Source of the DNA: Methanotrichaceae archaeon
GTDB lineage: Archaea; Halobacteriota; Methanosarcinia; Methanotrichales; Methanotrichaceae
DNA length: 64,000 bases
NCBI GenBank assembly: GCA_013178225.1
Contig: JABLXE010000006.1
Location: 62,001-126,000, forward strand
Direction of reading: 5' to 3'
Position numbers and translations under genes: made by a program
Notes under the pieces: generated by a model
What the model saw: the letters and a program-made list of their open reading frames with translations, nothing else
Databases searched by the model: none
What the model was told of the DNA's origin: nothing
Shown here: positions 139-24,649 of the stretch, piece after piece
How the letters are laid out: every line of letters starts with the position of its first letter
How positions within the stretch are numbered: the first letter of the stretch is position 1

Positions 139-650
139 CATTAACAACCGCGCCTTTAAGGGGTATATAGACGATTACGAACAGAATTGCCCGAAAATCA
201 TCCGGATTTGGCCGAAATTCGACTAAGAAGATTTGATTAGTATTAGTAATTTAGCCAAATCTTGGCATAGTGATTAACAGATCCATTTTTTTAATCCATT
301 CTCTCGATGTTCGGTTTATTGTGGAAGGCAGTAGCCGGTGCCAAGAGGATTGACTCTTTCAGTGTCACACGATCGATGACAAAATTGAATTGGGGGTGCT
401 CTGGCATCAGGATCGGGATTGTGCCAGAGCGGGATTTCACCTGATGGCCAGGTGAATGCTGGCCTGAACTGCGGCCATGACCCTGCCGCACTTCAAACAG
501 CGTTGTTAGGAGATATGTTATTAGGTAATAAATCTTACGATTATTGTTCTAATAATTATCTTTTCTATGCATCAAAAGTTATAATTAATAGGATCACATC
601 GAGTATAGTTCGGTCAAAAAAGATCACAATCAAGGGGGGAAATGACATTC
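139..650. other. Intergenic region upstream of the dockerin-SBP gene
   Basis: About 500 bases without a convincing gene. Short open frames on both strands have no ribosome site and no protein-like composition. It is AT-rich between 165 and 260 and again between 510 and 620, so it probably holds divergent promoters for the flanking secreted-protein genes. A GGGGGGA ribosome site lies at 634-640. Confidence 0.5.
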
Positions 651-2021
651 ATGCTCAAGATTTCGAATCCGGTCGCCGTTCTGGCAGTGCTCTTGATATT
701 CTTGGCTCTGCCAGTCTCCGGCGATGACTACGTGCTCAATATATTCGGCAACGCCAATCTCGACGGCACCATCGACCAGGATGATGCCGCATACATAAAA
801 AGTATTATCGATGGAGTCGGAGCATCTACGGATCTGGCAGATGCCAATTTCGACGGCCAGATCGACGAAGCTGATGTGTCTAAAGTGCAGGACATAATAA
901 ACGGCACCGAGTCCAGCCTCACCGTTCTGGACGGAAATGGCAAGCCGATCACCATCGGCATGCCGGTGGAGAGGGTTGTGGTGGAATATCTGGACAACGC
1001 CGACATGATGCAGATCCTAAAGCAGAGCGATCTGGTAGTGGGCGTGGACCTGGCGGTGGCTAACTCCGGCTCGGAGTTCCCGGAGCTATCGGAGCGGGCC
1101 AACGTGGGAGCAATGCACAAGGAGCCGGACTACGAAAAGGTGCTGAGCCTGGATCCGGATGTGCTTCTTACCTTTTCCAATGTGACTTCGGAGAAGGAGA
1201 AGAACCTGCCCGGCGTCTCAGTACTCTTCGCGGGCCTATACTACCCGGATCTGCTCAATCCGCATACATCCGCCTTCACAGATGCGGTGAGAAAGATGGG
1301 CTATATCCTGGAAGCCCGCGGTGAGGCTGAAGATTATCTGAAGTGGCATATTGGCTCTCTGGACCAGATCCGGAGATCAACCGATCGGGTACCTGAGTCG
1401 GACCGTCCCACTGTGCTGGTGGCTGCATATCCTGAGTCGGACGAAAAGACCATCTTCACCTTCGCCAGCATCGATACCCTTACCAACATGGTGCTCCTGG
1501 CCGGCGGGAATCCGGTGGCAGCCGATCTGCCCGACTTCCTCAAGTCCACCTACCGGATCGAAGTGGACTCGGAGTGGGTGATAGAACAGAACCCCGACTA
1601 CATCGTCCTGCTGGTCGTGGCCACCACCTACAGCGGCCTGGAGCTGGACCCGCCGAGCGGCTATGATGCCGACGATCCTACAGGCATTGCTGCTGCCAGG
1701 GAGGCATTTATGAGCCGGCCTGAATACTCGAACCTGACGGCAGTTCGAAATGGAGATGTGTACATTATGAGCGGCAACATGAGAAACGACGCCACCAAAG
1801 GGCTGATAGGTGCCGCCTATCTGGCGGAGATATTCCACCCCCAGGAGATGGACCTTGACCCGGAGGAGCTGCACCGGGAGTACGTGCAGAAATTCCTGGG
1901 CCTGGACTACGATCTCGATCAGCACGGAGTGTTCATCTATCCGCCGCTGGTTGTGGATGGCCGTGTGGAGGGAGTGCCCGACCAGAGCTACGAGCTTTCC
2001 TCAGAGAATAGAGCGGCCTGA
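651..2021 (+). CDS. Secreted substrate-binding protein (BtuF/FepB class) with an N-terminal dockerin-like domain
   Basis: About 456 residues. A signal peptide (residues 1-24) is followed by two F-hand calcium-loop repeats typical of type I dockerins (NANLDGTIDQDD and DANFDGQIDEAD). Next comes a periplasmic-binding fold of the iron/cobalamin ABC family, starting near ITIGMPVERVVV, with the conserved EPDYEKVLSLDPDVLL segment. Known members bind ferric-chelate or corrinoid ligands outside the membrane for a BtuCD/FecCD transporter. No permease or ATPase of that type lies nearby, so it is an orphan component here. The ATG at 651 is preferred because the GGGGGGA site sits 11 bases upstream. The ATG at 642 is only 2 bases from it. 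Confidence 0.85.
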   Translation: MLKISNPVAVLAVLLIFLALPVSGDDYVLNIFGNANLDGTIDQDDAAYIKSIIDGVGASTDLADANFDGQIDEADVSKVQDIINGTESSLTVLDGNGKPITIGMPVERVVVEYLDNADMMQILKQSDLVVGVDLAVANSGSEFPELSERANVGAMHKEPDYEKVLSLDPDVLLTFSNVTSEKEKNLPGVSVLFAGLYYPDLLNPHTSAFTDAVRKMGYILEARGEAEDYLKWHIGSLDQIRRSTDRVPESDRPTVLVAAYPESDEKTIFTFASIDTLTNMVLLAGGNPVAADLPDFLKSTYRIEVDSEWVIEQNPDYIVLLVVATTYSGLELDPPSGYDADDPTGIAAAREAFMSRPEYSNLTAVRNGDVYIMSGNMRNDATKGLIGAAYLAEIFHPQEMDLDPEELHREYVQKFLGLDYDLDQHGVFIYPPLVVDGRVEGVPDQSYELSSENRAA

Positions 2022-2067: not shown

Positions 2068-2748
2068 TCAAACCAGCCTTCCCCTCTCGATCACAGCTAT
2101 ATCGTGGGCCATGAAGCTCACCACCTGTGCAGAGTGTGTGATGAGCAGATATCCCATGCCCCGCTCGCGCTGCAGCTCTCTTAGCAGGTGCAGGACCTGA
2201 GCCTGCACCGATATGTCCAGGGCCGAGGTGGGCTCGTCCAGGATGATGATCTCCGGCTCCAGCAGCAGAACCCGGCCCAGCGCGATTCTCTGGTTCTGGC
2301 CGCCGGATACCTGTGAGGGACGGCGGCCCAGCAGCTCCTCTGAGAGCCCCACCGTCTGCAGCATATCGAGCGTTCGCTCATGCCAATCCCTCTTAGGCAC
2401 TTTCAAGAGGGAGAGCACTTCCTGAATCGAGCGCTCAATGCTCTTCATGGGATTCAGGGAGCCCTCCGGATCCTGAAAAACCATCTGCACCTTTCGCCGG
2501 AAGAGCCGAAAATCTCGTGCCTCCATCTTCCAGATGTCCCGGCCACCGAAGAGCACCCGTCCTTCTGATGGACGCTCCAGCCCGGCCAGGACCTTTCCCA
2601 GAGTGGTCTTGCCCGAGCCGGAGCCTCCCACCAGCCCCAAAGTTCTTCCGGGTAGAATCTCCAGATTCGCCCCCTCCAGAATGGTGCTGCGTTTCCCAAA
2701 ATATCCCGTTCGATAGGACATGCTCACGTTTTCAGAGCATAATCTCAT
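2068..2748 (-). CDS. Peptide/nickel ABC transporter ATP-binding protein (DppF/NikE type)
   Basis: About 226 residues. Walker A is GGSGSGKTT, the signature is VSGGQNQRIALGR and Walker B is IIILDEPTSALD, followed by the switch histidine in LLITHSAQ. It would energise uptake of oligopeptides, nickel or nickel chelates together with the partner ATPase and two permeases encoded upstream. The chosen ATG at 2748 overlaps the preceding stop as ATGA and has GAGGTG eight bases upstream. The longer start at 2766 would begin inside the upstream gene. It is the last gene of a six-gene operon. It lacks the C-terminal oligopeptide extension seen in its partner. Confidence 0.9.
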   Translation of the reverse strand: MRLCSENVSMSYRTGYFGKRSTILEGANLEILPGRTLGLVGGSGSGKTTLGKVLAGLERPSEGRVLFGGRDIWKMEARDFRLFRRKVQMVFQDPEGSLNPMKSIERSIQEVLSLLKVPKRDWHERTLDMLQTVGLSEELLGRRPSQVSGGQNQRIALGRVLLLEPEIIILDEPTSALDISVQAQVLHLLRELQRERGMGYLLITHSAQVVSFMAHDIAVIERGRLV

Positions 2749-3668
2749 CGACAGCACCTCACCCATCCGGTTGTTGTGGATTTTTGCACAGGCCTCTCAA
2801 TTGAGCACAGATCCCGCCTCCAGGGACAGCGGGGATGGAACCTGCATCCTTCCGGAGGATCGATCATGGATGGCGAGGGTCCGGGGATGGGCAAAAAGCC
2901 CCTTTCCGGAAGGCTGTCCAGAAGCGCCTGGGTGTAGGGATGGCTGGGGGCCTGAAGCACTTCTTCCGTTTTCCCCACCTCCATCACCTCTCCGCAGTAC
3001 ATCACCGCCACTTTGTCGGAGATCTGGCGGGCCACCTCCATATCGTGAGTGATCAGCAGAAGCGATGCCCCATTCACCTCTTTCGCCTTGCGAATCTCGC
3101 CCAGGACCTGCCCCACCATCGACTGGTCGAGTCCCTTTGTAGGTTCATCGGCAATTATTATCTTGGGGCCGAGTACAACCGAACAGGCGATCATCGCCCT
3201 CTGGTTCATGCCTCCCGAGAGCTGGAAGGGATAGCTGCTTTCCCGTCCCTTCAACCCCAGCCGCTGCAGGAGCTGAGATGAGATCTCCTCTGCCCGGGAG
3301 CGGGAGCTTCTCTTCTTCAAGATCATCGACTCTGACACCTGTTCGCTGATCTTGTAGACCGGATTGAGGGCCAAAGACGGATTCTGGAAGATGATGGCGA
3401 TATCCTGCCCCCTGATCCTGGCCATTTCCTTCTCGTCCAGCGAGAGCAGGTCCCGGCCTCGATAAATGACGCGACCGTCAACCTTTGCATTGGCGGGAAG
3501 AAGCTTCATGATGGCGTTGACCACCACCGACTTTCCGCAGCCCGTCTCCCCCACCAAGGCCAGGGTCTCATTGTATTCCAGGGCCAGGGATACCTGGGTG
3601 GCTGCCTTCACCAGTCCCTGGGGAGTTTCAAAGCTGACCGAGAGGTTCCTGATGTCGAGAAGCGCCAT
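2745..3668 (-). CDS. Peptide/nickel ABC transporter ATP-binding protein (DppD/NikD type)
   Basis: 307 residues. Walker A is GETGCGKSV, the signature is LSGGMNQRAMIA and Walker B is IIIADEPTKGLD. The C-terminus carries the oligopeptide-transporter extension with the cysteine pair GCRFHPRCPW. It is the fifth gene of the operon, four bases after the permease gene and overlapping the next ATPase gene by ATGA, so the two ATPases are probably translationally coupled. A close paralogue is encoded at 12069-13004. Family membership is clear. Sequence alone does not separate peptide from nickel specificity. Confidence 0.92.
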   Translation of the reverse strand: MALLDIRNLSVSFETPQGLVKAATQVSLALEYNETLALVGETGCGKSVVVNAIMKLLPANAKVDGRVIYRGRDLLSLDEKEMARIRGQDIAIIFQNPSLALNPVYKISEQVSESMILKKRSSRSRAEEISSQLLQRLGLKGRESSYPFQLSGGMNQRAMIACSVVLGPKIIIADEPTKGLDQSMVGQVLGEIRKAKEVNGASLLLITHDMEVARQISDKVAVMYCGEVMEVGKTEEVLQAPSHPYTQALLDSLPERGFLPIPGPSPSMIDPPEGCRFHPRCPWRRDLCSIERPVQKSTTTGWVRCCR

Positions 3669-3671
3669 TGT

Positions 3672-4514
3672 TCAATCCACCTTTACCGGCTCTATATCCC
3701 TCTCTTCCAGAATGCCGGCCATCATCACCAGCGACAGGACGAACACGGTGATGCACAACCCCGGCGGCAGATACCACCACCACATGCCGTTGATGAACCC
3801 TCCCCGGGAAAAGGCGTAGCTGATCATGGTCCCCCAGCTTTTCATAGAAGGATCGGAAAGCCCGAGAAAAGAAATGGAGGCCTCAGCGATCATGGCCGAG
3901 GCCACGGTCAGCATGAACTTGGGGGCAATGACGTAGAGGGTGTTTGGCAGCACGTCGGAGAATATCACGTGGTTGTCGGAAAACCCTATGGCTTTAGCCC
4001 CTGCCACAAAGCCCATCTCTCTCACCTGCAGGGTGCGGGAGCGGACGATTCTGGCCAGAGCCGTCCACCATAAGAGTCCCATCAGAAGCGCCATCAGCCA
4101 GAAGCTGGGGCGGAGGAACGCGGCTAAAACGATTATCAGCGGTATCTGGGGGATCATCAGAAATATGTCGGTGATGCCCATCAGCACCTCATCGGCCATT
4201 CCCCGGAAGTAACCGGCGAAGAGACCCACGGCTGTGCCCAGGGTTGCGGAAAGGATGGCTGCCGAAAATCCCACTGCCAGGGATACCCTGGAGCCGAAGA
4301 TAAGCTCAGACAAGATGTCGTGACCCATGTCGTTGGTTCCCAGCAGGTGTTCCCAGCCCGGCATCTGGTAGGGATTAAATCTCTTCCAGGGGTCATAGGG
4401 CGAGATCAGGTCAGCCAGCAGGGCGGCCAGTATGAAGGACGAGAAGATTAAGGGGCCCAGAAGGCTCCAGCGTGCTCTTATCTTCTCCTCGGCGCTCCGG
4501 AGTGCCCGGATCAC
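3672..4514 (-). CDS. Peptide/nickel ABC transporter permease (DppC/NikC type)
   Basis: About 280 residues with six predicted membrane segments. The N-terminal extension ends in the LLGTNDMGHDILSELIFG motif of this permease class, and the EAA-like loop is near REMGFVAGAKAIG. The open frame continues upstream within the dppB-like gene, but the likely start is GTG at 4514, which overlaps that gene's TGA as GTGA and has GAGGTG six bases upstream. The C-terminus contains a typical WWWYLPPGLCI segment. A decayed relative is visible at 14235-14680. Confidence 0.88.
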   Translation of the reverse strand: MIRALRSAEEKIRARWSLLGPLIFSSFILAALLADLISPYDPWKRFNPYQMPGWEHLLGTNDMGHDILSELIFGSRVSLAVGFSAAILSATLGTAVGLFAGYFRGMADEVLMGITDIFLMIPQIPLIIVLAAFLRPSFWLMALLMGLLWWTALARIVRSRTLQVREMGFVAGAKAIGFSDNHVIFSDVLPNTLYVIAPKFMLTVASAMIAEASISFLGLSDPSMKSWGTMISYAFSRGGFINGMWWWYLPPGLCITVFVLSLVMMAGILEERDIEPVKVD

Positions 4515-5452
4515 CTCTGCCACCTCACCCTCGGGTCCACCAGTCCGTAAGTCCAGTCGGCCAGGAGGTTGGCCAGAATTACCATGATGGTGATCACGGC
4601 AAAGGTCCCCTGAAGAACCGGATAATCCCTGCACAGCAGGGAGTCGTAGATCAAATTGCCCATTCCGTGCATGGAGAACACGATCTCTATGAACAGAGCG
4701 CCGCTGAAGATGAAGCCGAAATCCAGGGCCACCAGGGTGATGATCGGCAGGGCAGCATTCTTGAAGATATGTCGGAACAGTATCTGGTCGGAGGACAGTC
4801 CCTTGGCGCGGGCGTACGAGGCATAGAGCATCTGCCTCTCCTGGATCACCGATCCGCGCATGATCATATAGTTTCTGGAGGCCGAAAAGAGGGTCATGAT
4901 CAGAACCGGAAGGAATAGATGGTGCGCGATGTCTCCAATCGTTCCGCTCTGGTAGAACCCCTTCAGGGGAAACCATCCCAGCTCAAATCCCAGGAAATAG
5001 AGGGCCAGCATGGACAGGAAGTAGGGCGGCGTGCAGTAGATCAGCAGAAATCCGGTCGTCTGCAATCGGGATTTCGCCTCCTTTCTCCTCCAGCCGGCCA
5101 GGGCCCCCAGCAGGGTGCCGACAAAGGCACCCATAATTATGGATGGGGCCACCAGCAGCATGGTCCACTTGATCCTCTCCCGGATCAGACTGGAGACCGG
5201 AGCATGGAGGTGGTAGGAATAGCCGAGGTCTAGATGAAACAGATCGCGCCAGTAATTTAAGAACTGGATATGAATCGGCTGGTCCACACCCACCTTGGCC
5301 TTCAGCTCCAGCATGGCATCCTCGCTCAGGTGCACGTCTTCTCCCATGAGGTTGGTGAGCGTGTCGCCGGGCATGGCCCTGGGAATGGCGAAGTTCAATG
5401 ATATGATCAAGAAAAAAGCGATTGCATACCTGGCCGTCTTGCCCCAGAGCAT
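4511..5452 (-). CDS. Peptide/nickel ABC transporter permease (DppB/NikB type)
   Basis: 313 residues with a first membrane segment near residues 7-24, the conserved IPRAMPGD motif after it, and five further segments. The coupling loop is around YARAKGLSSDQILFRHIFKN. The C-terminal YGLVDPRVR is the usual family ending. It forms the membrane channel with the DppC-type permease, whose start overlaps this stop. Fourteen bases separate it from the upstream methyltransferase gene. No dppB counterpart survives in the second, decayed locus. Confidence 0.9.
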   Translation of the reverse strand: MLWGKTARYAIAFFLIISLNFAIPRAMPGDTLTNLMGEDVHLSEDAMLELKAKVGVDQPIHIQFLNYWRDLFHLDLGYSYHLHAPVSSLIRERIKWTMLLVAPSIIMGAFVGTLLGALAGWRRKEAKSRLQTTGFLLIYCTPPYFLSMLALYFLGFELGWFPLKGFYQSGTIGDIAHHLFLPVLIMTLFSASRNYMIMRGSVIQERQMLYASYARAKGLSSDQILFRHIFKNAALPIITLVALDFGFIFSGALFIEIVFSMHGMGNLIYDSLLCRDYPVLQGTFAVITIMVILANLLADWTYGLVDPRVRWQR

Positions 5453-5466
5453 CTTCGATGGGCTCC

Positions 5467-6246
5467 TCAGCTCAGGTGGTAGAGCAGGGCATCTTCGCTT
5501 CTGAAAAGGGCAAGAGGTTCCGGCATCCCCATAATCAGGCGGCCTCTATCTTTCAGAAACTTCGTCAGGTCATCCGGAGTCCGGTCCGAGAACCTGTACT
5601 GTTGAAATACCAGCCGCAGGGGCAGGGTGTAATCCCTCGCGAACAGCTCCACCTCGAAATCGAGTCCCATGTCTTCCAGTATGTGCTGGAGGCATCGGTA
5701 GTCGGCCGAGGCTTTGGGACCGTAGGCGAACTCGCTCAACGGGTCCACCTGCCCGGCCCTGAAGACTATGAACGCGCCTTTTCTCGATACATCCACCATC
5801 TTTTGCAGAAATCCCTCAGCCTCCTCAGCAAAGAGGCTGTAGGCGGACAGAGTGTAGTCGATCTCTCCCAGATCCTCGCATGCCGCATCTTCCCAGGATG
5901 AGTTCAATATTTCGATATTTTCGATACCTTCTGCGGCAGCCTTCCCCTGCAGCCTGTTCAGCTGGCTTCGAGATGGGTCCAGGGCGATCATCTTTCGGGT
6001 TCGTCTGGCCAGAGGAATGGCAAAGGCTCCCGTTCCGGCCCCGATATCCAAAAAATTACAGCCCGGAGCGATAAGAGTGGCGATCCTCTCCAATATCTCT
6101 CCGGGGTACTTGATGTGAGACAAAATCTCATCGTAGACTGGATAGCCTTCCCAGAACTGGTCGTCATTCCAGCCCCGATCCTTCAAGACATGTTTGTAAC
6201 TGCTCTCGTTTATGAAATTCCTCCATTCATCCGTCCACTTGCTCAT
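5467..6246 (-). CDS. Class I SAM-dependent methyltransferase inside the peptide/nickel ABC operon
   Basis: 259 residues. Motif I is FLDIGAGTGAFAIPLA, followed by an acidic residue at the end of strand 2 (MIALDPSRSQ). The N-terminus (WTDEWRNFINESSYKH) and C-terminus match neither well-known protein nor rRNA methyltransferases. The start at 6246 gives an ATGA overlap with the substrate-binding protein gene, so it is the second cistron of the operon. A related methyltransferase (14656-15468) occupies the same place in the second locus. I infer that it modifies a small-molecule ligand or chelator handled by the transporter. The substrate is not shown by the sequence. Confidence 0.85.
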   Translation of the reverse strand: MSKWTDEWRNFINESSYKHVLKDRGWNDDQFWEGYPVYDEILSHIKYPGEILERIATLIAPGCNFLDIGAGTGAFAIPLARRTRKMIALDPSRSQLNRLQGKAAAEGIENIEILNSSWEDAACEDLGEIDYTLSAYSLFAEEAEGFLQKMVDVSRKGAFIVFRAGQVDPLSEFAYGPKASADYRCLQHILEDMGLDFEVELFARDYTLPLRLVFQQYRFSDRTPDDLTKFLKDRGRLIMGMPEPLALFRSEDALLYHLS

Positions 6247-7829
6247 GCGCCGGACCTCGTCACGTTCAGGAAGTTGTCTTGGTTGTAGATGCCGTAGAGC
6301 GGATCGGAGACCCAACCCTTCCACTCACGATTATAGGGAGTCAGGACCTTGTTCCAGTAAAGGGCGATTCCCGGCAGGTTGGCTGCATAGTAATCCTGCA
6401 GATCTTCAGCATACCCTTCGAGTTCGCTCTCGCTGGTGGAGGCAAGGATATCGTCGCAAAGCTCCAGGAAGGCCGGATCGTCCAGGACGTGCAGAACTCC
6501 TTCGCCTGTTCGGCGTGAGTCGAAGTATCCCGTTCCCCAGTTGGCGTGCATCATCATGCCCCAGGGTGTGGTTCTGGTAACGGTCAGATCGTAGCCGTAC
6601 TGGTCCTTGGTAGCTATCCAGGTGCTGGAGTCCACGGTCTTGATCTCGGAATCGATTCCCAGATCGCTCAGGTACTCCTTCATCAGCTCGGAAGCCCTCT
6701 GATAATCGTTTCTGGTCAGCAGCAGCAGCTTCATGTCTTTGCCAGAGAGATTCTCACGCAGCCCGTCGCCGTTGAGGTCCTTGTATCCTGCTTCATCCAG
6801 GATCTCACGAGCCTGATCAGGATCGTACCTCAGAGCATCGGTCTCCTGGAAGTACACCATGCTGGGCGGCACGAATCCGCGATTTGCGACCTCTCCGTAT
6901 CCGAGGGCATCCAGGTTCAGGATCTCGTCGTAGTTGATTCCATAGGACAGGGCCTCCCTGAACTTAAGGTCCGACATGGGCTCCTTTTTCAGATTCATGC
7001 CCAGGAAGATCAGACCAACGTTGTCTTTCTCCACGAAGTCGAAGTTGCCGTTGTCTTCGAGCTTCTGCACATTGGCATAGGGATAGGTGCCGGCATATTT
7101 GTAGTATGCGTCCACGTCCCCCTTCTCCAGTGCCAGCGAGAGAACGTCCATATTGTCGTACATATGGACCTCAATTGCGTCTACTTGAGGCTGCTCTCCC
7201 TTCCAGTAGGGATTTTTCTGGAATTCGATCACGCCTGACGGAAGGTCGATCTTCTCGATGACGAATGGACCACAGCCTATACTTTCGCCATCGTTGATGT
7301 ACTCTACTGGATCATCTATCTCCTCCCAGATGTGCTTGGGAAGAACGTTGTAAGTGGCAAACTCAAGGTTTAGCCGGGAGTAGGGCTGATTGAGCGTGAA
7401 TACCACACTTCCGTCATCAACTGATATGTCTCGCACGGTATTCTTAATCCAGCCTGCTGATGGGACATTTTCAGCCAGGTATTCAAAGGTGAACTTCACG
7501 TCTTCTGGAGTGAGGGGGGTTCCGTCGCTCCAGTACAGGCTATCGTCTATTACGAACTTCCAGGTGCGACCGTCCTCTGAGACCTCATAGCTCTTGGCGG
7601 TCTGTCCGACCACTGCTCCATCCGGAGTCATCTTCATCAGCGGTGGATTGGAGAGATGGGCAAAGACCCCCAGAGAGGAGTCTCCCAAAATGGACGCGGA
7701 TTTGACCATATTGGGAGTTCCGATCTTCAATACGCCATCACCGCTGCCGCTATCGGCCCCTTGGGCTGCGGCGGCAATCAGCACCATGAACACAAATGCT
7801 GAAGCAATTATGTGGCGAGCAATCTTCAT
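6243..7829 (-). CDS. Extracytoplasmic solute-binding protein, family 5 (peptide/nickel)
   Basis: 528 residues. A signal peptide covers residues 1-24, and the SBP_bac_5 fold shows WKFVIDDSLYWSDGTPLTPEDVKFT, split here as the typical SDGTPLTPEDVKF motif. Family members bind peptides, nickel or nickel chelates and deliver them to DppBC-type permeases. It is the first gene of the six-gene operon. GAGGT at 7838-7842 lies nine bases upstream of the ATG, and an AT-rich promoter (TTTTTTATAC, minus strand, about 7870-7879) precedes it. No lipobox is evident, so membrane anchoring is unclear. Confidence 0.92.
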   Translation of the reverse strand: MKIARHIIASAFVFMVLIAAAAQGADSGSGDGVLKIGTPNMVKSASILGDSSLGVFAHLSNPPLMKMTPDGAVVGQTAKSYEVSEDGRTWKFVIDDSLYWSDGTPLTPEDVKFTFEYLAENVPSAGWIKNTVRDISVDDGSVVFTLNQPYSRLNLEFATYNVLPKHIWEEIDDPVEYINDGESIGCGPFVIEKIDLPSGVIEFQKNPYWKGEQPQVDAIEVHMYDNMDVLSLALEKGDVDAYYKYAGTYPYANVQKLEDNGNFDFVEKDNVGLIFLGMNLKKEPMSDLKFREALSYGINYDEILNLDALGYGEVANRGFVPPSMVYFQETDALRYDPDQAREILDEAGYKDLNGDGLRENLSGKDMKLLLLTRNDYQRASELMKEYLSDLGIDSEIKTVDSSTWIATKDQYGYDLTVTRTTPWGMMMHANWGTGYFDSRRTGEGVLHVLDDPAFLELCDDILASTSESELEGYAEDLQDYYAANLPGIALYWNKVLTPYNREWKGWVSDPLYGIYNQDNFLNVTRSGA

Positions 7830-9796: not shown

Positions 9797-11273
9797 GCTG
9801 CCTGTCACCGTTCTGGCGGTGGCGTTCCTCATCTCAACGGGCATGGCAGTGGTCTGGGGAGATGATGCCCGGGGCGACCTCAGCTGGGGGGAGAGTCTGA
9901 CGCTTGGGAACTACTCCATCCAGGCAGCCGACTTTTTCGCTCCCGAAAATTCACCCGCCAGAGTCGTCTTGACGGTCCGTTCTCAGGATCAGCCGGAAGA
10001 GAGCAGGGTCCTTCAGGCTGGCGAGGGCTTTGAGATCGACGATCGTCTCAAGGTGGTGGTGGGCCAGGTCAGGATCGAAGACCTGGTGGAGAATCAATCC
10101 AGCGCTGATGTTAGGATGTGGGTTCCGGCCGTCCCTGAGATTACTCTCCTGATCATGCCCGACAAAGACTATTATTTTGGGGGAGACGAGATAAATCTGG
10201 AGCTGGTGGCTAAAAACACCGGGTTGGCCGCAGCTGAAGGGCTGAAAGTGACAATTGAATGCCAAGATATCCCATCAATTGATGCCCTTCGCAAAGGAGT
10301 GCTGAGTCCCGGCGAGACCTGGAAGGAGGATGGCAAGAATCCGTCGATGAAGCTCCGGGCACCTTACCTCGCCGAGCCTGGCCCGGTAACCATCTCTGCT
10401 CTGGCAAGCTTTGAGGATTCCGAGGGTGCTTTCCATCAATCCCTTGCCAGAACCTCCTTTAAGGTGGCTGGGCCGCTGCAGCTGCATAAGAGATTTGAAG
10501 AGAAGCAGAGGTTTGGAAAGAATTACTTTGTCATCGATACCCTGAGAAACACCGGAAATAGAACTCTTCGCGTTACGCTGCAGGACTTCGCGGGGTCTGA
10601 TTTTAAAACCGGGTCACCGTTGTGCTGGGATCTCACGCTCCCCTCCGGCGGGACGGAGGTTGTAAGCTATGCTCTTGTGGCCAGGCAGCCTGGAACCGGA
10701 CTCGTCCTTCCTGCAGCCAGGGCCGGCTATTCGCTCGACGGAAGGGACTACCAGGTGGAGTCTGAGAGCCCCGTGGTGGACGTATTCGGTCCCTTGCTGA
10801 AAGTCTCCCGCAGAGTAAGCCCTCCAAGGCTTATCTTGGGAGAGGAGGCCGAGGTGGTCATGGAGCTGGAAAATGCCGGCAACAGGTACGCTGCAGTGAC
10901 GGTAGATAGCGACCTGCCGGAAGAGGTTCTTTTGGTAAAGGGAAGCCTGAACGGATCTTTCTCGCTTGGCCCCGGCGAGATAAAATCGCTGAGCTGCCGT
11001 CTGAAAGGCCTTCAAACCGGGCGCTTGAAGCTCTTGCCGGGAAACATCAGCTACCGGGACGTCCAGGGAAATGAGTATCAAACCGACTGTCCAGCCTCAA
11101 CCATAGTGGTCGAAGAGGAACCCCTGCCATCGGTGGAGGATCTGCAGGATAGCGAGAGTGAAAATATTCCTCTGGAGGAAGAGGCCCCGGTGGAGGGCGG
11201 ATCACCGCTTCAAGCGGCAATTCCTCTGGCTATTGTACTGGCTTTGTTCCTGGTCTTCTCCAGATACCTTTGA
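9750..11273 (+). CDS. Secreted, membrane-anchored S-layer-like or CARDB-type protein
   Basis: About 507 residues. A signal peptide lies within the first 38 residues. The N-terminal part (GESLTLGNYSIQAADF) resembles S-layer-associated domains of methanogens, followed by several Ig-like beta domains of the NEW3/CARDB kind (ELVAKNTGLAAAEGLKVTI, MELENAGNRYAAVTV). One C-terminal membrane helix closes the protein. I chose ATG 9750 because GGAGGG sits nine bases upstream. The frame is open further 5', but that stretch is the shadow of the preceding Ser-rich gene. It overlaps the convergent ATPase gene by 44 bases. Confidence 0.75.
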   Translation: MPFWSCWGFISSSGIKLPVTVLAVAFLISTGMAVVWGDDARGDLSWGESLTLGNYSIQAADFFAPENSPARVVLTVRSQDQPEESRVLQAGEGFEIDDRLKVVVGQVRIEDLVENQSSADVRMWVPAVPEITLLIMPDKDYYFGGDEINLELVAKNTGLAAAEGLKVTIECQDIPSIDALRKGVLSPGETWKEDGKNPSMKLRAPYLAEPGPVTISALASFEDSEGAFHQSLARTSFKVAGPLQLHKRFEEKQRFGKNYFVIDTLRNTGNRTLRVTLQDFAGSDFKTGSPLCWDLTLPSGGTEVVSYALVARQPGTGLVLPAARAGYSLDGRDYQVESESPVVDVFGPLLKVSRRVSPPRLILGEEAEVVMELENAGNRYAAVTVDSDLPEEVLLVKGSLNGSFSLGPGEIKSLSCRLKGLQTGRLKLLPGNISYRDVQGNEYQTDCPASTIVVEEEPLPSVEDLQDSESENIPLEEEAPVEGGSPLQAAIPLAIVLALFLVFSRYL

Positions 11274-12078
11274 TTGTCTCTTTTGCCTTTGAGCCTGGAC
11301 CTGAGAGGATATCGTTTTTAATTTTTGGGAGGCTGGTCTCAGATGCGAGAACCTTGGCAGCAAAATCCCGCCATTTCAGAGTCTCAATTATCCGCCCTTT
11401 ATCCATGATCGCTACCCTATCGCTCATGTGCTGGACCACCTCATGGTCATGGGATATGAAGAGCAAAGTCAGTTCTTGTTCCTTCTTCAGCTTCTGAATG
11501 AGGTTCAATATCTGGGCCTGCACGGAGACGTCGAGAGATGCGGTAGGCTCGTCAGCTACTATGAAGTCCGGCTTGATGGCCAGGATTCGGGCCAGGACCG
11601 CCCTCTGGTTCTGTCCGCCGCTCATCTGGTGGGGGTAGCGGTTAAAGTGTTCGGGATTAAGTCCCACGATTTCGATCAGCTCCATTACCCGCTCTCGGGT
11701 CTGCTTCTTTCCCAGCTTTCCGTTGAGACCGAGCCGCAAGGGCTCGGCAATGCAGTCTCCGATCTTCATTCTGGGGTTAAGAGACGATTCGGGGTCCTGA
11801 AAGATCATCTGCATTCTGGGCCGGATCCGGCGAAGCTCCGTCCGATTGAGGGACATGATATCGATGCCCTCGAAAAATATCTTTCCCGAGGTGGGCTCAA
11901 TCAGTCGCAATAGCATGCGTCCCACTGTTGTCTTTCCGCATCCGCTCTCTCCGATCAGACCCAGGGTCTCGCCCCGCTCGATGAAAAATGATACTCCGTC
12001 GACGGCTGTGGTGAGGTGCTTATGAAGAAGGCCGGAGGAATAGTGCTTCTTCAGATCGATGGCTTCGATCATGTGCAT
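11230..12078 (-). CDS. Second peptide/nickel ABC ATP-binding protein (DppF type)
   Basis: About 282 residues. Walker A is GESGCGKTT, the signature is MSGGQNQRAVLAR and Walker B is FIVADEPTASLD. A GAGGTG site six bases upstream favours ATG 12078. ATG 12072 would give an ATGA overlap with the upstream gene. It is a paralogue of the 2068-2748 product. Its operon has lost the permeases and binding protein, so it either serves permeases encoded elsewhere (for example those at 3672-5452) or is left over from a degrading locus. The reading frame itself is intact. Confidence 0.88.
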   Translation of the reverse strand: MHMIEAIDLKKHYSSGLLHKHLTTAVDGVSFFIERGETLGLIGESGCGKTTVGRMLLRLIEPTSGKIFFEGIDIMSLNRTELRRIRPRMQMIFQDPESSLNPRMKIGDCIAEPLRLGLNGKLGKKQTRERVMELIEIVGLNPEHFNRYPHQMSGGQNQRAVLARILAIKPDFIVADEPTASLDVSVQAQILNLIQKLKKEQELTLLFISHDHEVVQHMSDRVAIMDKGRIIETLKWRDFAAKVLASETSLPKIKNDILSGPGSKAKETIKGIWRRPGTKPVQ

Positions 12079-13004
12079 AAGTGGCACCTCACAGAATGTT
12101 CTTCTTCCAGGGCCTTCATTTCAGGGTGAATGGTCTTGCAGATATCGGTTGCCAGGGCACAGCGGGGATGAAACTTGCAGCCTGACGGAAAATCGATGAG
12201 AGACGGACTTGAGCCCGGGATAGGCACCAGTCCCCTGCTGGGGTGAGAGTTGATAAATCCACGAGTGTAAGGGTGGCAGGGATCGCTCAGAATCTCTTCG
12301 GAGGATCCCCATTCGAGAATTTCCCCGGCGTACATGACCGCTATCTGGTCGCAGATTTGGCCGGCCACGCCCAGGTCATGGGTGATCATCATCAGGGATT
12401 TTTCCTGGGTTGCTCCCTTGATCAGGTCGATTATTTGCATCTTGGTTTTGGCATCCAGCCCTTTGGTCGGTTCATCGGCGATGATGAAGGAGGGCCGGCA
12501 GGCCAGGGCCATGGCGATCAAGACCCGCTCCCGCATGCCACCGGACAGCTCATGCGGATACTGCCGGGCTCTCCTGGCCGGATCTGGCATATGCACCTCT
12601 TCCAGCATCTTCACTGCCAGGTTTAAGGCCTCTTCCCGGCTCTTTTCCAGATGTAGCCGGATGGCCTCCGCAATCTGGTCCCCGACCTTTAGAACCGGGT
12701 TTAGCGAGGTTGTGGGATTTTGCAGGATCATGGCAATCTCTCTTCCCCGGAGGCGTCTCATTTCGCCTTCTTTCATCAGCAGCAGGTCTCTTCCTCGATA
12801 GGCGATCCTTCCCTTAATTCTGGCCGTGGATTGAAGCAGACGAACGATCGCCATTCCCAGAACCGTCTTTCCGCAGCCGGTCTCGCCTATCAACCCGACC
12901 TTTCTTCCTTCCCGGATCTTCAGCGAGACGTGGTCCACTGCTTTCACCAAACCATCCTGGGTGGGAAAGGAGACGCTTAAGTCGGCAATCTCTAGCAGAG
13001 CCAT
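12069..13004 (-). CDS. Second peptide/nickel ABC ATP-binding protein (DppD type)
   Basis: 311 residues. Walker A is GETGCGKTV, the signature is LSGGMRERVLIA and Walker B is FIIADEPTKGLD, with the C-terminal oligopeptide extension GCKFHPRCALATDIC. It is paralogous to the product of 2745-3668. Its start is now separated from the methyltransferase gene at 15468 by a region carrying a permease remnant. In the intact locus a permease gene directly precedes the equivalent gene. All ATPase motifs are intact, so it is probably still functional. Confidence 0.9.
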   Translation of the reverse strand: MALLEIADLSVSFPTQDGLVKAVDHVSLKIREGRKVGLIGETGCGKTVLGMAIVRLLQSTARIKGRIAYRGRDLLLMKEGEMRRLRGREIAMILQNPTTSLNPVLKVGDQIAEAIRLHLEKSREEALNLAVKMLEEVHMPDPARRARQYPHELSGGMRERVLIAMALACRPSFIIADEPTKGLDAKTKMQIIDLIKGATQEKSLMMITHDLGVAGQICDQIAVMYAGEILEWGSSEEILSDPCHPYTRGFINSHPSRGLVPIPGSSPSLIDFPSGCKFHPRCALATDICKTIHPEMKALEEEHSVRCHLCT

Positions 13005-13475
13005 CTTGTAGACTCAATAACCCAAAATGTATTAAATCTTGCTATTATTTCTTGAATATTGGCAAGAGTCTCAATCGTATTGGATTTTTCTCTTCCGGAA
13101 CCTTCCCGTTGGGCATGAAATATCACAGAAGGCCTCTGCTGGAGAAGGCCGGCAGGGACATTCAAGGCTTCGACCATCTTCATTTTCCGGTGGCCGAAGA
13201 AGTCCTTCTGAATTGAACTCATCTGTTAGGGTGTATGCAGGTATCGAGGTTGAAAAACTTATTTTTCTCAGATTTTCTTTAATTTTACTTATTATACTTA
13301 ATAAGTGTGTTCTTTTCAAAATAATATATGAGTATTTATGAGCGCCCAGCCCCTTCTCATCAATTATCATACAATGAGTTAAAAAGTTCAATAATTGATA
13401 TCCCGAATGCTGAGAAATCCTTTTATAGTAAAAATGCATCTTAGAAAATAGACAAAATCAATGAGGTGATCTGTA
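13005..13475. promoter_or_regulatory. Divergent regulatory region with palindromes
   Basis: No convincing gene. It separates the minus-strand dppD-like gene from the plus-strand His-rich peptide. It contains an inverted repeat with perfect 8-base arms ACTTATTA/TAATAAGT (13287-13306), a second pair ATCAATTAT (13359-13367) and ATAATTGAT (13391-13399), and a TATA-like TTTTATAG at 13421-13428. The ribosome site GAGGTGAT is at 13463-13470. The arrangement suggests regulated, possibly metal-responsive, expression. Confidence 0.45.
13421..13428 (+). promoter_or_regulatory. TATA box for the His-rich peptide gene
   Basis: TTTTATAG lies about 50 bases before the ATG at 13476, which leaves room for a short leader carrying the GAGGTGAT ribosome site. 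The inverted repeat arms at 13359-13399 end about 20 bases upstream. Confidence 0.5.
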
Positions 13476-13592
13476 ATGTGTTGCCATAACAAAGATAAGC
13501 ACGAGCATGCCCACCAGCATGATAAAGAGAAGCATATCCACGAGCATATACATGATAGCGAGCATCAACACGGCCACAAATGCTGCCATTAA
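13476..13592 (+). CDS. His/Cys-rich 38-residue metal-binding peptide
   Basis: The frame encodes 38 residues, 13 of them His and 4 Cys. It begins MCCHNKDKHEH and ends HGHKCCH, so a CCH motif brackets an HxHxH-rich middle (HIHEHIH). There is no signal peptide, and the size and composition are those of a cytoplasmic metal buffer or metallochaperone. A GAGGTGAT ribosome site five bases before the ATG and a TATA box support expression. It lies inside a decayed nickel/peptide ABC locus and close to Znu-like and ECF nickel transporters, so binding of Ni, Zn or Co is a reasonable inference. It could also be a remnant of a longer His-rich protein. I do not recognise a named family. Confidence 0.7.
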   Translation: MCCHNKDKHEHAHQHDKEKHIHEHIHDSEHQHGHKCCH

Positions 13593-15662: not shown

Positions 15663-16547
15663 TTATAAAACCAGCTGCTTGTTGTGGTCCAAGACCTCTG
15701 CCATGGTGTTGGCTTCCGGAACAGATCCCGGGAAGTTGGTGAAGATCACGCGTTCGGCATTGATGCCCTTGTCGTTTAGCGCCTCTTCAATGCCCTTGGC
15801 CAGCTCTCCAGACTGCATGTTCTCTATAACGTAGGTGACGTTCTGGTACTTGGTCGGATTGGCGTTGATGTCGTCGACCACCTTGGCGGCGGTCTTGGTT
15901 CCGTTCATGGCGAACTCAGGAGCGAAGAAGTTGACCACCTTCATGCCCAGCCAGTCTTGTACCGGGTCCATCTGCCAGAGCATGACCACGACCTCAGTCT
16001 GGTTGAGCTTCTCCCTCTCTTCGGCGGTGGGCTCAATTGCGTCAAAGCTCTTCACGTATTCGTCGTACCGCTGCTCGTAATAGGTCTCGTTGGTCGGGTC
16101 CTTTTCCACCAGCCATCCTTTCACCTCGGCTGCCAGAACCTTGGCATTGGTCGGCGTGTTCCATCCCTGGGAGGGGTTAGAAACAGTATACCATACAACC
16201 TCTCCATAGTTGTTGGCCTTCATGAAATCGTTGACCGCAGGCATGTTGTACCTCTGGTCGTTGTTATCATTGTAGGCCATGAACATGTTGGCTTTCTCTA
16301 TGAAGTCCATGTGGAGCTGTATGCGGTTGGGGATGATGTCTGCCTGCAGGTGGGGGCACAGTGTCGGGTCGGCGATGGTGATGGCCTCGACTCGATCTCC
16401 GCCGATGGAAGTGGCAGGGTCCATCAGCACGCTGGTGGTGCTAACGATACGAAGCGTGGCTAAAGATGCGTCCTCGGCCAAGGCTGAAGCTGTCAGAAGG
16501 ATCGTTAGCATCAGCACGGCCAGGCTAAATGATTTAAATCCTCTCAT
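15663..16547 (-). CDS. Znu/Mnt-like metal ABC substrate-binding protein, divergent
   Basis: 294 residues with a signal peptide (1-24). The start of the cluster A-I fold is RIVSTTSVLMDPATSIGG, with a candidate ligand motif DPTLCPHLQAD (Cys64, His66) and His79. The canonical DPHxWLDP motif and the last His of ZnuA are not evident, so the metal may not be zinc. It is the last gene of a minus-strand cluster with the ATPase and permease at 17466-19027. A TATA-like TTTAAATAT (16570-16577) about 26 bases before the ATG and the lack of a ribosome site suggest an additional leaderless transcript. Confidence 0.8.
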   Translation of the reverse strand: MRGFKSFSLAVLMLTILLTASALAEDASLATLRIVSTTSVLMDPATSIGGDRVEAITIADPTLCPHLQADIIPNRIQLHMDFIEKANMFMAYNDNNDQRYNMPAVNDFMKANNYGEVVWYTVSNPSQGWNTPTNAKVLAAEVKGWLVEKDPTNETYYEQRYDEYVKSFDAIEPTAEEREKLNQTEVVVMLWQMDPVQDWLGMKVVNFFAPEFAMNGTKTAAKVVDDINANPTKYQNVTYVIENMQSGELAKGIEEALNDKGINAERVIFTNFPGSVPEANTMAEVLDHNKQLVL

Positions 16548-16693
16548 ATGTTCAGCTTGTTAATACTAAATATTTAAATTTTACTACAATTAGATTAATA
16601 ATCCTTGCAAATTCATAATAACTCAGACAACTGCAAATGCGGAGGAAAGCAGAGCGACTATGAACTTTCTTCCTCCGGACAGAACCGCGTCCG

Positions 16694-17443
16694 TTAGTCA
16701 GACTTGACCAGAAACGATGCTCCCGCGTCTCCGGCCATTCTCCTTGCGATCTTCACCGGGATTCCCATGGCCAGGCAGCTTTCCGGCAGCCACTGCCTGG
16801 CTGAAGGGTCTGTAGGGCCCAGGTATATTTTAGAGACAGAGGCGTTCTCTGCCATTCCCGCAGGATAGGTGATCAGGGTGGCACATGCCGGTCCCCAAGG
16901 GGCGGATATAGAGTTGATTGCGTCAGGGCTGCCGAAATGGGCCAGTGCGCACAGGTCCCGGATCTGCTCGCCGCCGGCAAAACATATTATGCATCTTACC
17001 CCAGGATCGTCAGCCATCCCCTCGCAGCGCCCGATCACCACATACCTGCCCATTGGTTTGATATCTCCCACTGCATCGTAGGTCTCACGGGCCACAGTCT
17101 CGTCCGCTTTTAGTCGCTTTGGTGCAAGATTTTCATCCGGTGATGTGGTGGCCATGAGGCCCGGCAGTCGAGGATCGAATCCGCAATATCCGAACCACGC
17201 AGGTCCGCCGATGCAGCGGCAGAAGGACCGGCCCGTCTCATGTCTGATGTAGACCGGATCAGTTATTCTGCCGTCTGCTAAGTGGTACACGGCAGAGGCC
17301 AGACATTCGCTGATCGAGGATGAGGGAATGACCTTTCCCGGCAGCCAGTCCGAGCCGTAGGCGCACAGCGGCCAGGTCTTCATGTTCACAGCCTCAGCCA
17401 GTCGACTTCCGATCTCCGCGATAGATAATTCCTCTTTTTCCAT
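16694..17443 (-). CDS. DUF169 family protein
   Basis: 249 residues, soluble, with many cysteines (FCRCIGG, RCIICFAGGEQ) and conserved stretches such as CALAHFGSPDAIN and APWGPACATLI typical of DUF169. The biochemical role of the family is not known. Such genes are frequent in methanogens and anaerobes. It sits 22 bases after the permease gene and before the binding-protein gene in the metal transporter cluster, so it may handle or sense the imported metal or cofactor. GAGG lies about 11 bases before the ATG. Confidence 0.8.
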   Translation of the reverse strand: MEKEELSIAEIGSRLAEAVNMKTWPLCAYGSDWLPGKVIPSSSISECLASAVYHLADGRITDPVYIRHETGRSFCRCIGGPAWFGYCGFDPRLPGLMATTSPDENLAPKRLKADETVARETYDAVGDIKPMGRYVVIGRCEGMADDPGVRCIICFAGGEQIRDLCALAHFGSPDAINSISAPWGPACATLITYPAGMAENASVSKIYLGPTDPSARQWLPESCLAMGIPVKIARRMAGDAGASFLVKSD

Positions 17444-17465
17444 AGCAAGAAACGCCTCTGGTCTT

Positions 17466-18296
17466 TCAGTGAATTTTCGTGTTTATCCTTCTCTTGAACG
17501 ACAGCATTACGGATAAGGCAAAGACGGCTGTGAGCAACAGCGCCACCAGCGGCGCTACCGGAAGCGTGAACTCAAAGCCTGCCCATACGCCGAAGATGCT
17601 CACCAGCAGGGCCACGACCGGGGCCACGACGAACATGGACTTCACGTTGAAGCAGAACTGGCTGGCGATTGAAGCCGGCGTCACCAGCAGGACGAATATC
17701 AGAAGGCCGCCCACGATGTTGAGGCTTAGCGCCACCGACAGGGCGATGATGAAGAGCAGGATATAATAAACGAGCTTGACTCGAATGCCGGCCGCCTCGG
17801 CGATCTTCATGTTAAACATGATGGCCGAGATCTCCTTGTAAAAAGCCAGGACGAAGATGATGGAAAGTCCGCAGACTGCAGCCAGGGCGTAAATCTCCTC
17901 TCTGTAAAGAGAGATTACGTCTCCGAAGAGAAGCGCGCTGGCCGAAAGCCCCCTGCCCATGTACTCCATGTAAGAGATCAGGAAGACGGCCACTGCCATG
18001 GACATGGCGAAGAGAACGCCTAACGTCGCGTCCGCCGCCATTTTAGCTTTGTCGCTTATCGGCCCGATCAGGGCTGCCACGCCCATGCTGAAGGCTATGG
18101 CTGCCGCCTGGGCGTTTCCTCCCACGAACATTCCGATGGCCGCTCCGGCAAATGCGGCATGAGACATGGTGAAGCCGATAGAGGATAGCGCCATGCGGGA
18201 GATTATTACCCCCAGTATGCTGCAGGCGATGGAGACGAAGATCATGGCCTCGAGGGCATGGCAGACCACGTTGTTGGGAATTAACGGCTCGAGCAT
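17466..18296 (-). CDS. Znu-like metal ABC transporter permease
   Basis: 276 residues with about eight hydrophobic segments of the ABC-3 permease family. It contains GFTMSHAAFAGAAIGM, which corresponds to the conserved SHAAxxGxxxG loop, and LLVTPASIASQF near the C-terminus. The open frame extends far upstream into the ATPase gene, but the ATG at 18296 is preceded by AAGGTG eight bases away and overlaps that gene by 16 bases. It forms the membrane channel for the ATPase and binding protein of the same cluster. Confidence 0.88.
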   Translation of the reverse strand: MLEPLIPNNVVCHALEAMIFVSIACSILGVIISRMALSSIGFTMSHAAFAGAAIGMFVGGNAQAAAIAFSMGVAALIGPISDKAKMAADATLGVLFAMSMAVAVFLISYMEYMGRGLSASALLFGDVISLYREEIYALAAVCGLSIIFVLAFYKEISAIMFNMKIAEAAGIRVKLVYYILLFIIALSVALSLNIVGGLLIFVLLVTPASIASQFCFNVKSMFVVAPVVALLVSIFGVWAGFEFTLPVAPLVALLLTAVFALSVMLSFKRRINTKIH

Positions 18297-19027
18297 CTTC
18301 CGTTCACCTTGCACTCTTTTCTGATGATATCTTCTACTTCTCCTGCTGTACAGTTCATGTCGTAGGTGATCGTTCCTGAGTTCATGACCACCAGGTGGAT
18401 GGGTATGTCCGGGAGGCCGTCGAAGGCGTGTGCTACTATCAGAGTGGGAATTCCATCGCGCACCAGATCCTTGAACACGCCCTGCAGGTACTCTCTGGCG
18501 TGGAAATCGAGATTGCTGAAGGGCTCGTCCAGCATCATGACCTCCGGCTCCTTGGCGAGGTTGTGGGCGATCATGGTCTTCTGCTGCTGCCCGCCGCTGA
18601 GCGTGCCGATGGTCTTGTGGACCAGGTCCTCGATTCCGACCCGGCGTATGGCCCGGTCTGCAGCCTCGTAGTCCTGCTTCGAGGGCTGCTTCAGAAGGCC
18701 TAGGCGTCCGAAGCGTCCCATCATCACCACCTGCTCTACGGTAAAGGGTGTGAAGGGATCGAAGTAGAAATTCTGAATCACGTAGCCCACTCTCTTTCTC
18801 ACCTCGTCTGCGGAACGGGACACGTCCAGGCCGCAGACGGATGCGCTGCCGTGGGTGATCTTGACCAGGCCGTTCATCGACTCCAGCAGCGTCGTCTTGC
18901 CGGCACTGTTGGGGCCGCCGATTACCACATATTCGCCTTGATCCACGTGCAGGGACAGGTTCTTGATAACTGCCTTGTCGCCACCTTCGTATGCGGTGTA
19001 AATGCCTTTCAGGTCGATTAGTGCCAA
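18281..19027 (-). CDS. Znu-like metal ABC transporter ATP-binding protein
   Basis: 248 residues. Walker A is GGPNSAGKTT, the signature is LSGGQQQKTMIA and Walker B is VMMLDEPFSNLD. It is of the manganese/zinc/iron ATPase class. It starts with TTG at 19027 with a GGTG-containing site upstream, 14 bases after the FmdE-like gene. The C-terminus is slightly extended (KECKVNGRCSSR), with two cysteines that could touch metal. It works with the permease that overlaps its end. Confidence 0.88.
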   Translation of the reverse strand: MALIDLKGIYTAYEGGDKAVIKNLSLHVDQGEYVVIGGPNSAGKTTLLESMNGLVKITHGSASVCGLDVSRSADEVRKRVGYVIQNFYFDPFTPFTVEQVVMMGRFGRLGLLKQPSKQDYEAADRAIRRVGIEDLVHKTIGTLSGGQQQKTMIAHNLAKEPEVMMLDEPFSNLDFHAREYLQGVFKDLVRDGIPTLIVAHAFDGLPDIPIHLVVMNSGTITYDMNCTAGEVEDIIRKECKVNGRCSSR

Positions 19028-23049: not shown

Positions 23050-23871
23050 TTATTTTTTAAAGTAGTTCCTGATTGCGGCTTTTGCCTCCTCTTTTGTAAA
23101 TGGCGTCGGTCCGGAGTAGCAGCCTTCTGCTCGCAGTTCCAGAAAGAGATCTGCGAAGAGCGGCATTTCAAGGCCCAATTCCCTCAACAATTCTCGTCTC
23201 TGAAGAATTTCTCTTGCCTCTCCATTGGACACCAGCTTGCGGTTCAAGAGTAGAATCCTGTCTGCCAGCAGGGGCACGGTGTTCACGTCGTGGGTGGCTG
23301 TCACCAAAGTTGTTCCTTCGGCCTGCAGCTTCCTGATCAGACGGATCATCTCAGTCTTGGACCTGGGGTCCAGATTGGAGGTGGGTTCATCCAGGACCAG
23401 CACCATTGGTCTCATCGAGAGGACCGTTGCCAAAGATGCCTTCTTTCGCTGCCCGAAGCTCAGATGGTGAGGACTTCTTTCCGACAGGTTCAGGAGGCCG
23501 ACCGATTCCAGCGCCCAGCGCACTCTCTTTTGGACCTCCGCTTCTGAGAGGCCCATATTCCTGGGTCCGAAGGCCACATCCTCTTTCAGGGTGGGCATGA
23601 AGAGCTGGTCATCCGGGTCCTGGAACACCACCCCCACTTGGCTTCGAATCCAGCCAAGGCTGTGTTCTTCAATCTCTCTATCCATGATGCGAACGAGGCC
23701 GCTGCCCCGCAGGAGACCGTTCAGGTGCAGAAGCAGAGTTGACTTTCCGGCACCGTTGGGTCCTAAAAGGGCGATGGATTCTCCCTTTAGGACCGAGAAG
23801 GTAACCCCATCCAGGGCCGGCGTCCCATCGGGATAACTGTAGCTCAGGTTTTCAACTTCTATGGCCTTCAT
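23050..23871 (-). CDS. cbiO: ECF nickel/cobalt transporter ATP-binding protein (CbiO/NikO)
   Basis: 273 residues. Walker A is GPNGAGKST, the signature is the CbiO-type LSFGQRKKASLA, and Walker B is VLVLDEPTSNLD. It hydrolyses ATP to drive the energy-coupling module of an ECF-type nickel or cobalt importer with CbiQ and CbiM. It is the last gene of the seven-gene operon, 28 bases after cbiQ. Nickel is more likely than cobalt given the NikL/DUF4198 partners, but sequence does not decide. Confidence 0.9.
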   Translation of the reverse strand: MKAIEVENLSYSYPDGTPALDGVTFSVLKGESIALLGPNGAGKSTLLLHLNGLLRGSGLVRIMDREIEEHSLGWIRSQVGVVFQDPDDQLFMPTLKEDVAFGPRNMGLSEAEVQKRVRWALESVGLLNLSERSPHHLSFGQRKKASLATVLSMRPMVLVLDEPTSNLDPRSKTEMIRLIRKLQAEGTTLVTATHDVNTVPLLADRILLLNRKLVSNGEAREILQRRELLRELGLEMPLFADLFLELRAEGCYSGPTPFTKEEAKAAIRNYFKK

Positions 23872-23899: not shown

Positions 23900-24649
23900 T
23901 TAAAGTGCCTGAATGCCGATTGCCGCACTCAGCACCAGGAAACATTTCAGGATATCGTCCATTCCGATCTCACGTCGGCTGCCGACGTGAATGGTCCCCG
24001 TGTAGCCCCTGGAGATCATTGCCAAAAAGACCTCTTCCGCTCTCTCGTAGCTTCTGATCAGAAGCATGGCCAGGGACAGGGATAGTATTCGAGCGGTCTT
24101 GAAATCCGACCTCTTGATGAATCCTTTAGAATCCATAGACCTGCTCATGGTAGTCAGCTCTTCATTCAAAAGAAAAATATAACGATAAGCGAAGAGGAAT
24201 ATCTGCTCCAGTGAGCCTGGAAGCCCCATGTCGCGCAGAGCTCTGATGGTCACAGTGAAGGGGGCCGTTGCCACAATCAGCAGAGCCAGGAGAGCTGCTG
24301 CCAGCCCGCGAATGAAAAATAGCAGGCCAGTAGACAGACCTTGAGCGCTGGGGGCAATTGCCGAGATCGAAAAAAGGGGATCTCCGCTGGTAGTGAAAGG
24401 CAGAATGATCACAAAGGGCAGGAGAAAGAGTGCTGGCCACTTCATGAACCTTGCCACGTGGTCCAGAGGAAGTCTCGATATTACGATCAGCAGTAGCGCT
24501 ACGGCTAGGCCAGCCAATGCTTTCGGGATGTCTCCCGCCAGAGCCACGGAGAAGATAAGGACCAGGATGGATAGGACCCTGGCCCTCGCTTCCCAGCAGT
24601 GGATTGGGGACTCCAGCCTGAAGCACTCTTCGAGGTCGAAGTGGCTCAT
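23900..24649 (-). CDS. cbiQ: ECF nickel/cobalt transporter transmembrane T component (CbiQ/NikQ)
   Basis: 249 residues with about five hydrophobic segments. The coupling motifs are SMDSKGF (for ARSxG-type helix one) and MLLIRSYERAEEVFLAMISRGY, the usual second coupling helix. It links the ATPase CbiO to the substrate-specific CbiM. It lies ten bases after the upstream NikL-like gene and is clearly in the same operon. Confidence 0.9.
   Translation of the reverse strand: MSHFDLEECFRLESPIHCWEARARVLSILVLIFSVALAGDIPKALAGLAVALLLIVISRLPLDHVARFMKWPALFLLPFVIILPFTTSGDPLFSISAIAPSAQGLSTGLLFFIRGLAAALLALLIVATAPFTVTIRALRDMGLPGSLEQIFLFAYRYIFLLNEELTTMSRSMDSKGFIKRSDFKTARILSLSLAMLLIRSYERAEEVFLAMISRGYTGTIHVGSRREIGMDDILKCFLVLSAAIGIQAL

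Follow-up and report, generated by a model that had tools for sequence, protein, structure and literature searches.

Does a very short reading frame rich in histidine and cysteine, lying among transporter genes of a Methanotrichaceae archaeon, encode a protein, and if so, what might that protein do? To our knowledge, the storage and routing of nickel inside acetate-using methanogens are largely open, despite the high nickel demand of these organisms. Methanogens need much nickel, and its uptake is thought to run through Nik and CbiMNQO systems (PMC10617489). A preliminary description of the DNA considered here had put forward the frame as a plausible metal buffer or chaperone.

The window (the whole 64,000-nucleotide stretch of DNA that was analyzed) carries the frame at 13476-13592 on the forward strand, stop codon included, and its translation is MCCHNKDKHEHAHQHDKEKHIHEHIHDSEHQHGHKCCH. 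As originally claimed, 13 of the 38 residues are His and four are Cys, with a CCH at each end and HxHxH repeats between them, and the ATG is preceded, a few bases upstream, by a good ribosome site, GAGGTGAT (13463-13470, forward strand), and 54 nt upstream by an archaeal TATA box, TTTATAG (13422-13428, forward strand). No N-terminal signal peptide was seen on inspection. With 45% His plus Cys, the peptide is the extreme of the 583 ORFs of 25 to 80 amino acids in the window (the next ORF reaches 23%), and the highest value found among 60 shuffled windows was 30%. The two inverted repeats reported upstream are indeed present and perfect (9 nt at 13359-13367/13391-13399, read as ATCAATTAT-N23-ATAATTGAT, and 8 nt at 13287-13294/13299-13306), but we recognized no counterpart upstream of the peptide genes of relatives and therefore place little weight on them.

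A homologous frame in close relatives, on which the preliminary description had made its proposal depend, was readily found. A protein search of 40 related genomes returned intact homologues at 63 to 79% identity with both CCH caps kept, and a search with a profile of 22 members located the peptide in 27 of the 50 family genomes examined, the archaeal family being taken as the Methanothrix group. Both caps and nearly all His residues are invariant in the homologues (in eight archaeal members, 20 columns do not vary), Cys, Lys, Asp, and Glu positions are conserved as well, and the invariant His codons swap freely between CAT and CAC. The median pairwise dN/dS was 0.087 in the archaeal set (20 sequences of equal length) and likewise 0.087 in a bacterial set (16 sequences) described below. 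The ribosome site GGAGGTGA is kept 5' of almost all homologues, and, of 28 archaeal upstream regions, most have a box similar to TTTATAG between -46 and -78. We concluded that the window peptide is the product of a genuine, strongly conserved small gene under purifying selection. About half of the archaeal family lacks the gene or has it in broken form, and decayed copies are found at L010 and L016: that of genome G008 has lost its start and acquired an internal stop, and a second copy in G003, lying behind CbiO, has lost its first part. The peptide gene is therefore dispensable in some lineages and not essential.

As a separate observation, many peptide genes of the Methanothrix group (e.g., L173, L174, L176, and L182) carry the motif GCTACAAATTG some 68 nt 5' of the TATA box, in some cases with TTATGCATAA still farther 5'. 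The former is a possible regulator site, and it is not present upstream of the peptide gene in the window.

The family proved wider than the preliminary description had suggested, extending from acetate-using methanogens to some anaerobic bacteria. A DNA pattern scan of 84,980 species, each represented by one genome, gave 61 stretches, 45 of which encode the peptide; the other 16 (e.g., L024, L034, and L067) encode none and were dropped. The hosts are Methanothrix-group genomes, one Methanospirillum metagenome-assembled genome (MAG), and bacterial MAGs labelled Deltaproteobacteria, Syntrophobacterales, Desulfobacca, Nitrospira, or Nitrospiraceae. The bacterial form (Desulfobacterota and Nitrospirota) has 52 or 53 residues and always keeps the CCH end, and the first 11 residues of the window peptide (MCCHNKDKHEH) are kept in several bacterial members. 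Whole-phylum draws found the peptide in 13 of 345 genomes of the phylum of G066 and in 4 of 346 of the phylum of G067. Among 295 genomes of the archaeal phylum, no free-standing peptide was found outside the family, the weak matches all lying inside frames of 360 to 406 residues. This patchy two-domain spread suggests transfer between anaerobes that share sediments. The peptide had no match above the curated cutoffs of Pfam and NCBIfam, no match in a sequence search of the PDB, and none in a tblastn search of plasmids, and we found no earlier description of it in the literature searched. We define the family by CCH at both ends, an HxHxH core, a length of 38 to 53 amino acids, and purifying selection, all of which the peptide shows, and by a recurrent Ni/Co neighborhood, which is found in the family and is looser in the window itself. 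Judged by its sequence, the peptide is the archaeal branch of an undescribed His/Cys family of 38 to 53 residues, unnamed in the libraries searched.

The window holds several transport systems around the gene. A full Nik/Opp set (binding protein, permeases, and two ATPases) lies at 2068-7829, and beside this operon is a secreted binding-protein-like ORF with dockerin-like repeats (DANLDGTIDQDDAAYIKSII..., 642-2021, forward strand). A second pair of Nik/Opp-type ATPases occupies 11230-13004 on the reverse strand (11230-12087 and 12069-13004), the latter (ABC_tran plus oligo_HPY) being divergent from the peptide gene, and a similar divergent pair occurs in G056 (L175). This pair had been read as a second operon that lost its permeases; what is seen is only the absence of permeases beside it. 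The nearby Znu-like and ECF systems were correctly described. A ZnuA/B/C-like system lies at 15663-19027, and homologues of its ZnuA-like metal-binding protein (15663-16547, reverse strand) adjoin the peptide gene in L031/L171, L079/L169, and L181; ECF-type CbiO (23050-23871) and CbiQ (23900-24649), both on the reverse strand, are followed by CbiM at 25501-26085 (G000:C25:87501-88085). The Ni/Co linkage is thus looser in the window itself, where CbiM is 12 kb from the peptide gene and the nearest neighbors are of uncertain substrate.

Across the family, the neighbors identified by Pfam and NCBIfam were CbiM, CbiN, CbiQ, CbiK (a cobaltochelatase), DUF4198, NikL-type subunits, ZnuA, FmdE, CDF efflux proteins, and Nik/Opp components, CbiO also recurring among the ECF neighbors; the commonest in both domains were ECF Ni/Co genes, NikL, DUF4198, and CbiK. 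With an ECF reference gene set that had been picked from the peptide loci themselves, at least one ECF Ni/Co gene was present in 21 of 50 peptide loci and in none of 20 stretches drawn as controls from these genomes (Fisher p = 3e-4), and adding ZnuA, FmdE, CDF, and two recurrent small proteins raised the count to 29 of 50 loci, again with no controls. Because of this origin of the reference set, we tested the linkage again from the positions of CbiM as identified by Pfam: of 41 genomes, 11 have CbiM no more than 8 kb from the peptide, where 0.58 would be expected (Poisson P = 4e-11, a value that is too small, the genomes being related, although the linkage is nonetheless seen in archaea and bacteria). 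Conservation beside nickel genes, named at the outset as what would favor a metal-related role, thus extends to distant bacteria. One-direction arrays are found in L033 (CbiQ-CbiO-peptide) and L044 (CbiO-peptide), NikL/DUF4198 lies directly 5' of the peptide gene in L028 and L063, and CbiK is convergent with it in L039, L048, L057, L071, and L076. In L025 (2399-2737, reverse strand), a peptide-related His run (MCGRDKDQHEHAHAHEEVTHSHDG...) is fused to a CopZ-like HMA domain (Pfam HMA, E = 4e-12). Fifteen of the 50 loci have no metal-transport neighbor in the DNA examined, several of them on short contigs.

Other features of these loci may be recorded here. A 122-amino-acid protein ending in WHHCCQLCSLDD is encoded ~0.9 kb 5' of the peptide gene in L035 (1477-1842, forward strand) and also in L049, L058, and L069, coming after CbiO in L035, L058, and L069; that of L035 has no Pfam or NCBIfam match, and it may be a further metal binder encoded in that array. 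The archaeal CbiO ATPases of L017, L018, and L021 end in a His-rich, peptide-like tail (e.g., IHEHMHVHGKLVHEHLHDHEEEHKHGHLTA); such tails are present also in genomes without the peptide, and they are a possible evolutionary source or functional equivalent of it. An 85-amino-acid protein without a Pfam match lies between CbiK and the convergent peptide gene in L025 (140-394, forward strand), L048, and L057, and cobalamin riboswitches precede CbiK near the peptide gene in L048 (7314-7502, reverse strand), L057 (5518-5706, forward strand), and L076 (1302-1485, reverse strand).

In bacteria, the peptide gene is followed by a structured RNA. A 91-nt element begins, as a strong match, a few bases past the peptide stop codon in 17 of the 18 bacterial peptide-bearing genomes (the RNA model was built from these loci, so that the match beside the peptide is partly by construction, whereas the conservation itself is not); the element is degenerate in G072, and one strand has decayed in G351. 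Its outer helix has 12 pairs and shows compensatory changes, its GCC-ACGAA-GGC mini-hairpin is invariant, and it also contains a third helix and a U-run (L207:5956-6049, forward strand, with equivalents in L189-L206). Pairing holds in 96.5% of its pair cells, and every shuffle fell short on all five measures; a comparison with Rfam 15 gave no meaningful match. In the class of G066, 26 of 29 genomes contain the core of the element, GCCACGAAGGC-hairpin-CGTGGYTTTTT (the reversed control pattern gave 0), and many copies lie within ~150 nt before CbiM, DUF4198, TonB-receptor, and outer-membrane genes; these downstream genes were identified by eye, and a few of them were checked in Pfam. Leader copies occur in L245, L250/L152, L252 (two), L190, L251, and L258-L287. 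Through this RNA, the bacterial peptide is connected with genes of Ni/Co uptake. The mini-hairpin and the intrinsic terminator have a strand in common, which makes the RNA a candidate for a new attenuator or riboswitch, apparently one serving a Ni/Co regulon. None of the five Methanothrix-group genomes tested contains it, the archaeal 3' flanks have no shared RNA element, and it is therefore not part of the feature in the window. Tentatively, the peptide could be the metal-buffering arm of a Ni/Co regulon run in bacteria by an undescribed RNA switch, in which the GCC-ACGAA-GGC mini-hairpin would compete with the intrinsic terminator (AAGCCACGAA / TTCGTGGCTT-Tn). Placed in the leaders of genes for CbiM, DUF4198, TonB receptors, and outer-membrane proteins, and in a longer version immediately 3' of the peptide gene, the switch would couple uptake and buffering to the Ni/Co level of the cell (or to a corrinoid/tetrapyrrole signal); we regard this scheme as possible, and on balance doubtful.

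Nickel binding is known for His-rich proteins that contain CC motifs; one such protein, Hpn of Helicobacter, sequesters nickel and participates in passing it to urease (PMC4671568). Hpn and Hpn-2 are, like the peptide, small, His-rich, free-standing, and nickel-linked, but the peptide is capped at each end by CCH, and its HxH ladder is regular and free of poly-His or Gln-rich parts. Hpn has been described from gastric Helicobacter (PMC4671568), whereas the peptide is found in archaea and anaerobic bacteria (the Methanothrix group, Desulfobacterota, and Nitrospirota) beside Ni/Co importer genes. CooJ, a His-rich nickel protein of CODH operons, resembles it in having a His-rich segment, which in CooJ binds nickel, and in its CODH-bearing hosts (PMC6006190). 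CooJ is a 12.6-kDa protein whose His residues are confined to a C-terminal domain (PMC6006190), whereas the peptides are of 4 to 6 kDa, both archaeal and bacterial forms have His along their whole length, and none was seen in a CODH operon. The His-rich tails of UreE (the sole NCBIfam similarity of the peptide, E = 4.5) and of CbiO from the same archaeal family have a similar HxHxH composition, but these runs are tails of folded proteins, whereas the peptide is a separate gene product with CCH caps. CopZ/HMA metallochaperones are linked to it by the L025 fusion, the only case with an HMA domain; the peptide itself has neither that domain (no Pfam match) nor MxCxxC.

By analogy with Hpn and CooJ and from the gene linkage, from which we infer binding, the metal, and its hand-over, the peptide is probably a buffer or carrier of Ni(II)/Co(II) in the cytosol, disordered when empty, that would work much as Hpn does and would presumably belong to a separate family. 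Ni(II) and/or Co(II) would enter through ECF (CbiMNQO/Nik) or Nik/Opp importers and be bound in the cytosol by the HxHxH runs and the two CCH caps; binding would lower the level of free metal, which could then be handed to sinks such as cobalt/nickel chelatases and CODH or hydrogenase maturation. The invariant caps and His ladder in both domains, the low dN/dS with free exchange of His codons, the ECF linkage (21 of 50 loci versus 0 of 20), the excess of nearby CbiM genes, the L025 fusion, and the bacterial RNA core, which stands both behind the peptide gene and before CbiM and DUF4198 genes, argue for this reading, and the ZnuA and CDF neighbors, the 15 loci without a metal-transport neighbor, the 12-kb distance of CbiM in the window, and the patchy presence argue against it. 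The proposed buffer or chaperone role is well supported by association with Ni/Co uptake genes.

The same position near several metal transporters would suit a metallothionein-like buffer or detoxifier of zinc, copper, or cadmium. Paired cysteines are suited to soft metals, L043 and L031 have ZnuA-like and CDF neighbors, and the HMA fold, to which the His run of L025 is fused, is best known for copper; His residues far outnumber Cys, however, and the Ni/Co genes listed above are the commonest recurrent neighbors in both domains, so that we consider another metal unlikely. A role as an importer accessory subunit, docking on CbiO/CbiQ or CbiM and taking metal at the cytosolic mouth, would fit the operon-like arrays in which the peptide follows CbiO (L033, L044, L059, and L069) and the peptide-like tails of several archaeal CbiO proteins, which may act likewise, but many members are far from any importer gene and the archaeal gene's own promoter suggests separate expression, making this role quite improbable. 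We also considered, and set aside as very improbable, a regulatory leader peptide whose translation would control the terminator 3' of its gene in the style of his-operon attenuation: the peptide is His-rich and a terminator-like RNA starts just past the stop codon in bacteria, but archaeal members lack the RNA, the Cys, Lys, Asp, and Glu positions are conserved as well, and no consistent same-strand target gene lies downstream. A chance open frame, which its shortness and lack of a name in the libraries searched might suggest, is already refuted by the low dN/dS, the ribosome sites, and the two-domain conservation, and by a composition never reached in shuffled windows.

On the evidence of sequence comparison, then, the Ni/Co-linked peptides form a new family with an unusual cross-domain spread, and the kind of molecule to which they probably belong, the His-rich metal buffer, is a known one. 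The case shows that comparative genomics can validate a very small frame beside transporters, and a peptide of 4 to 6 kDa that occurs from archaea to sulfate reducers and Nitrospirota, and that can be synthesized, is a concrete candidate for a part in nickel routing.
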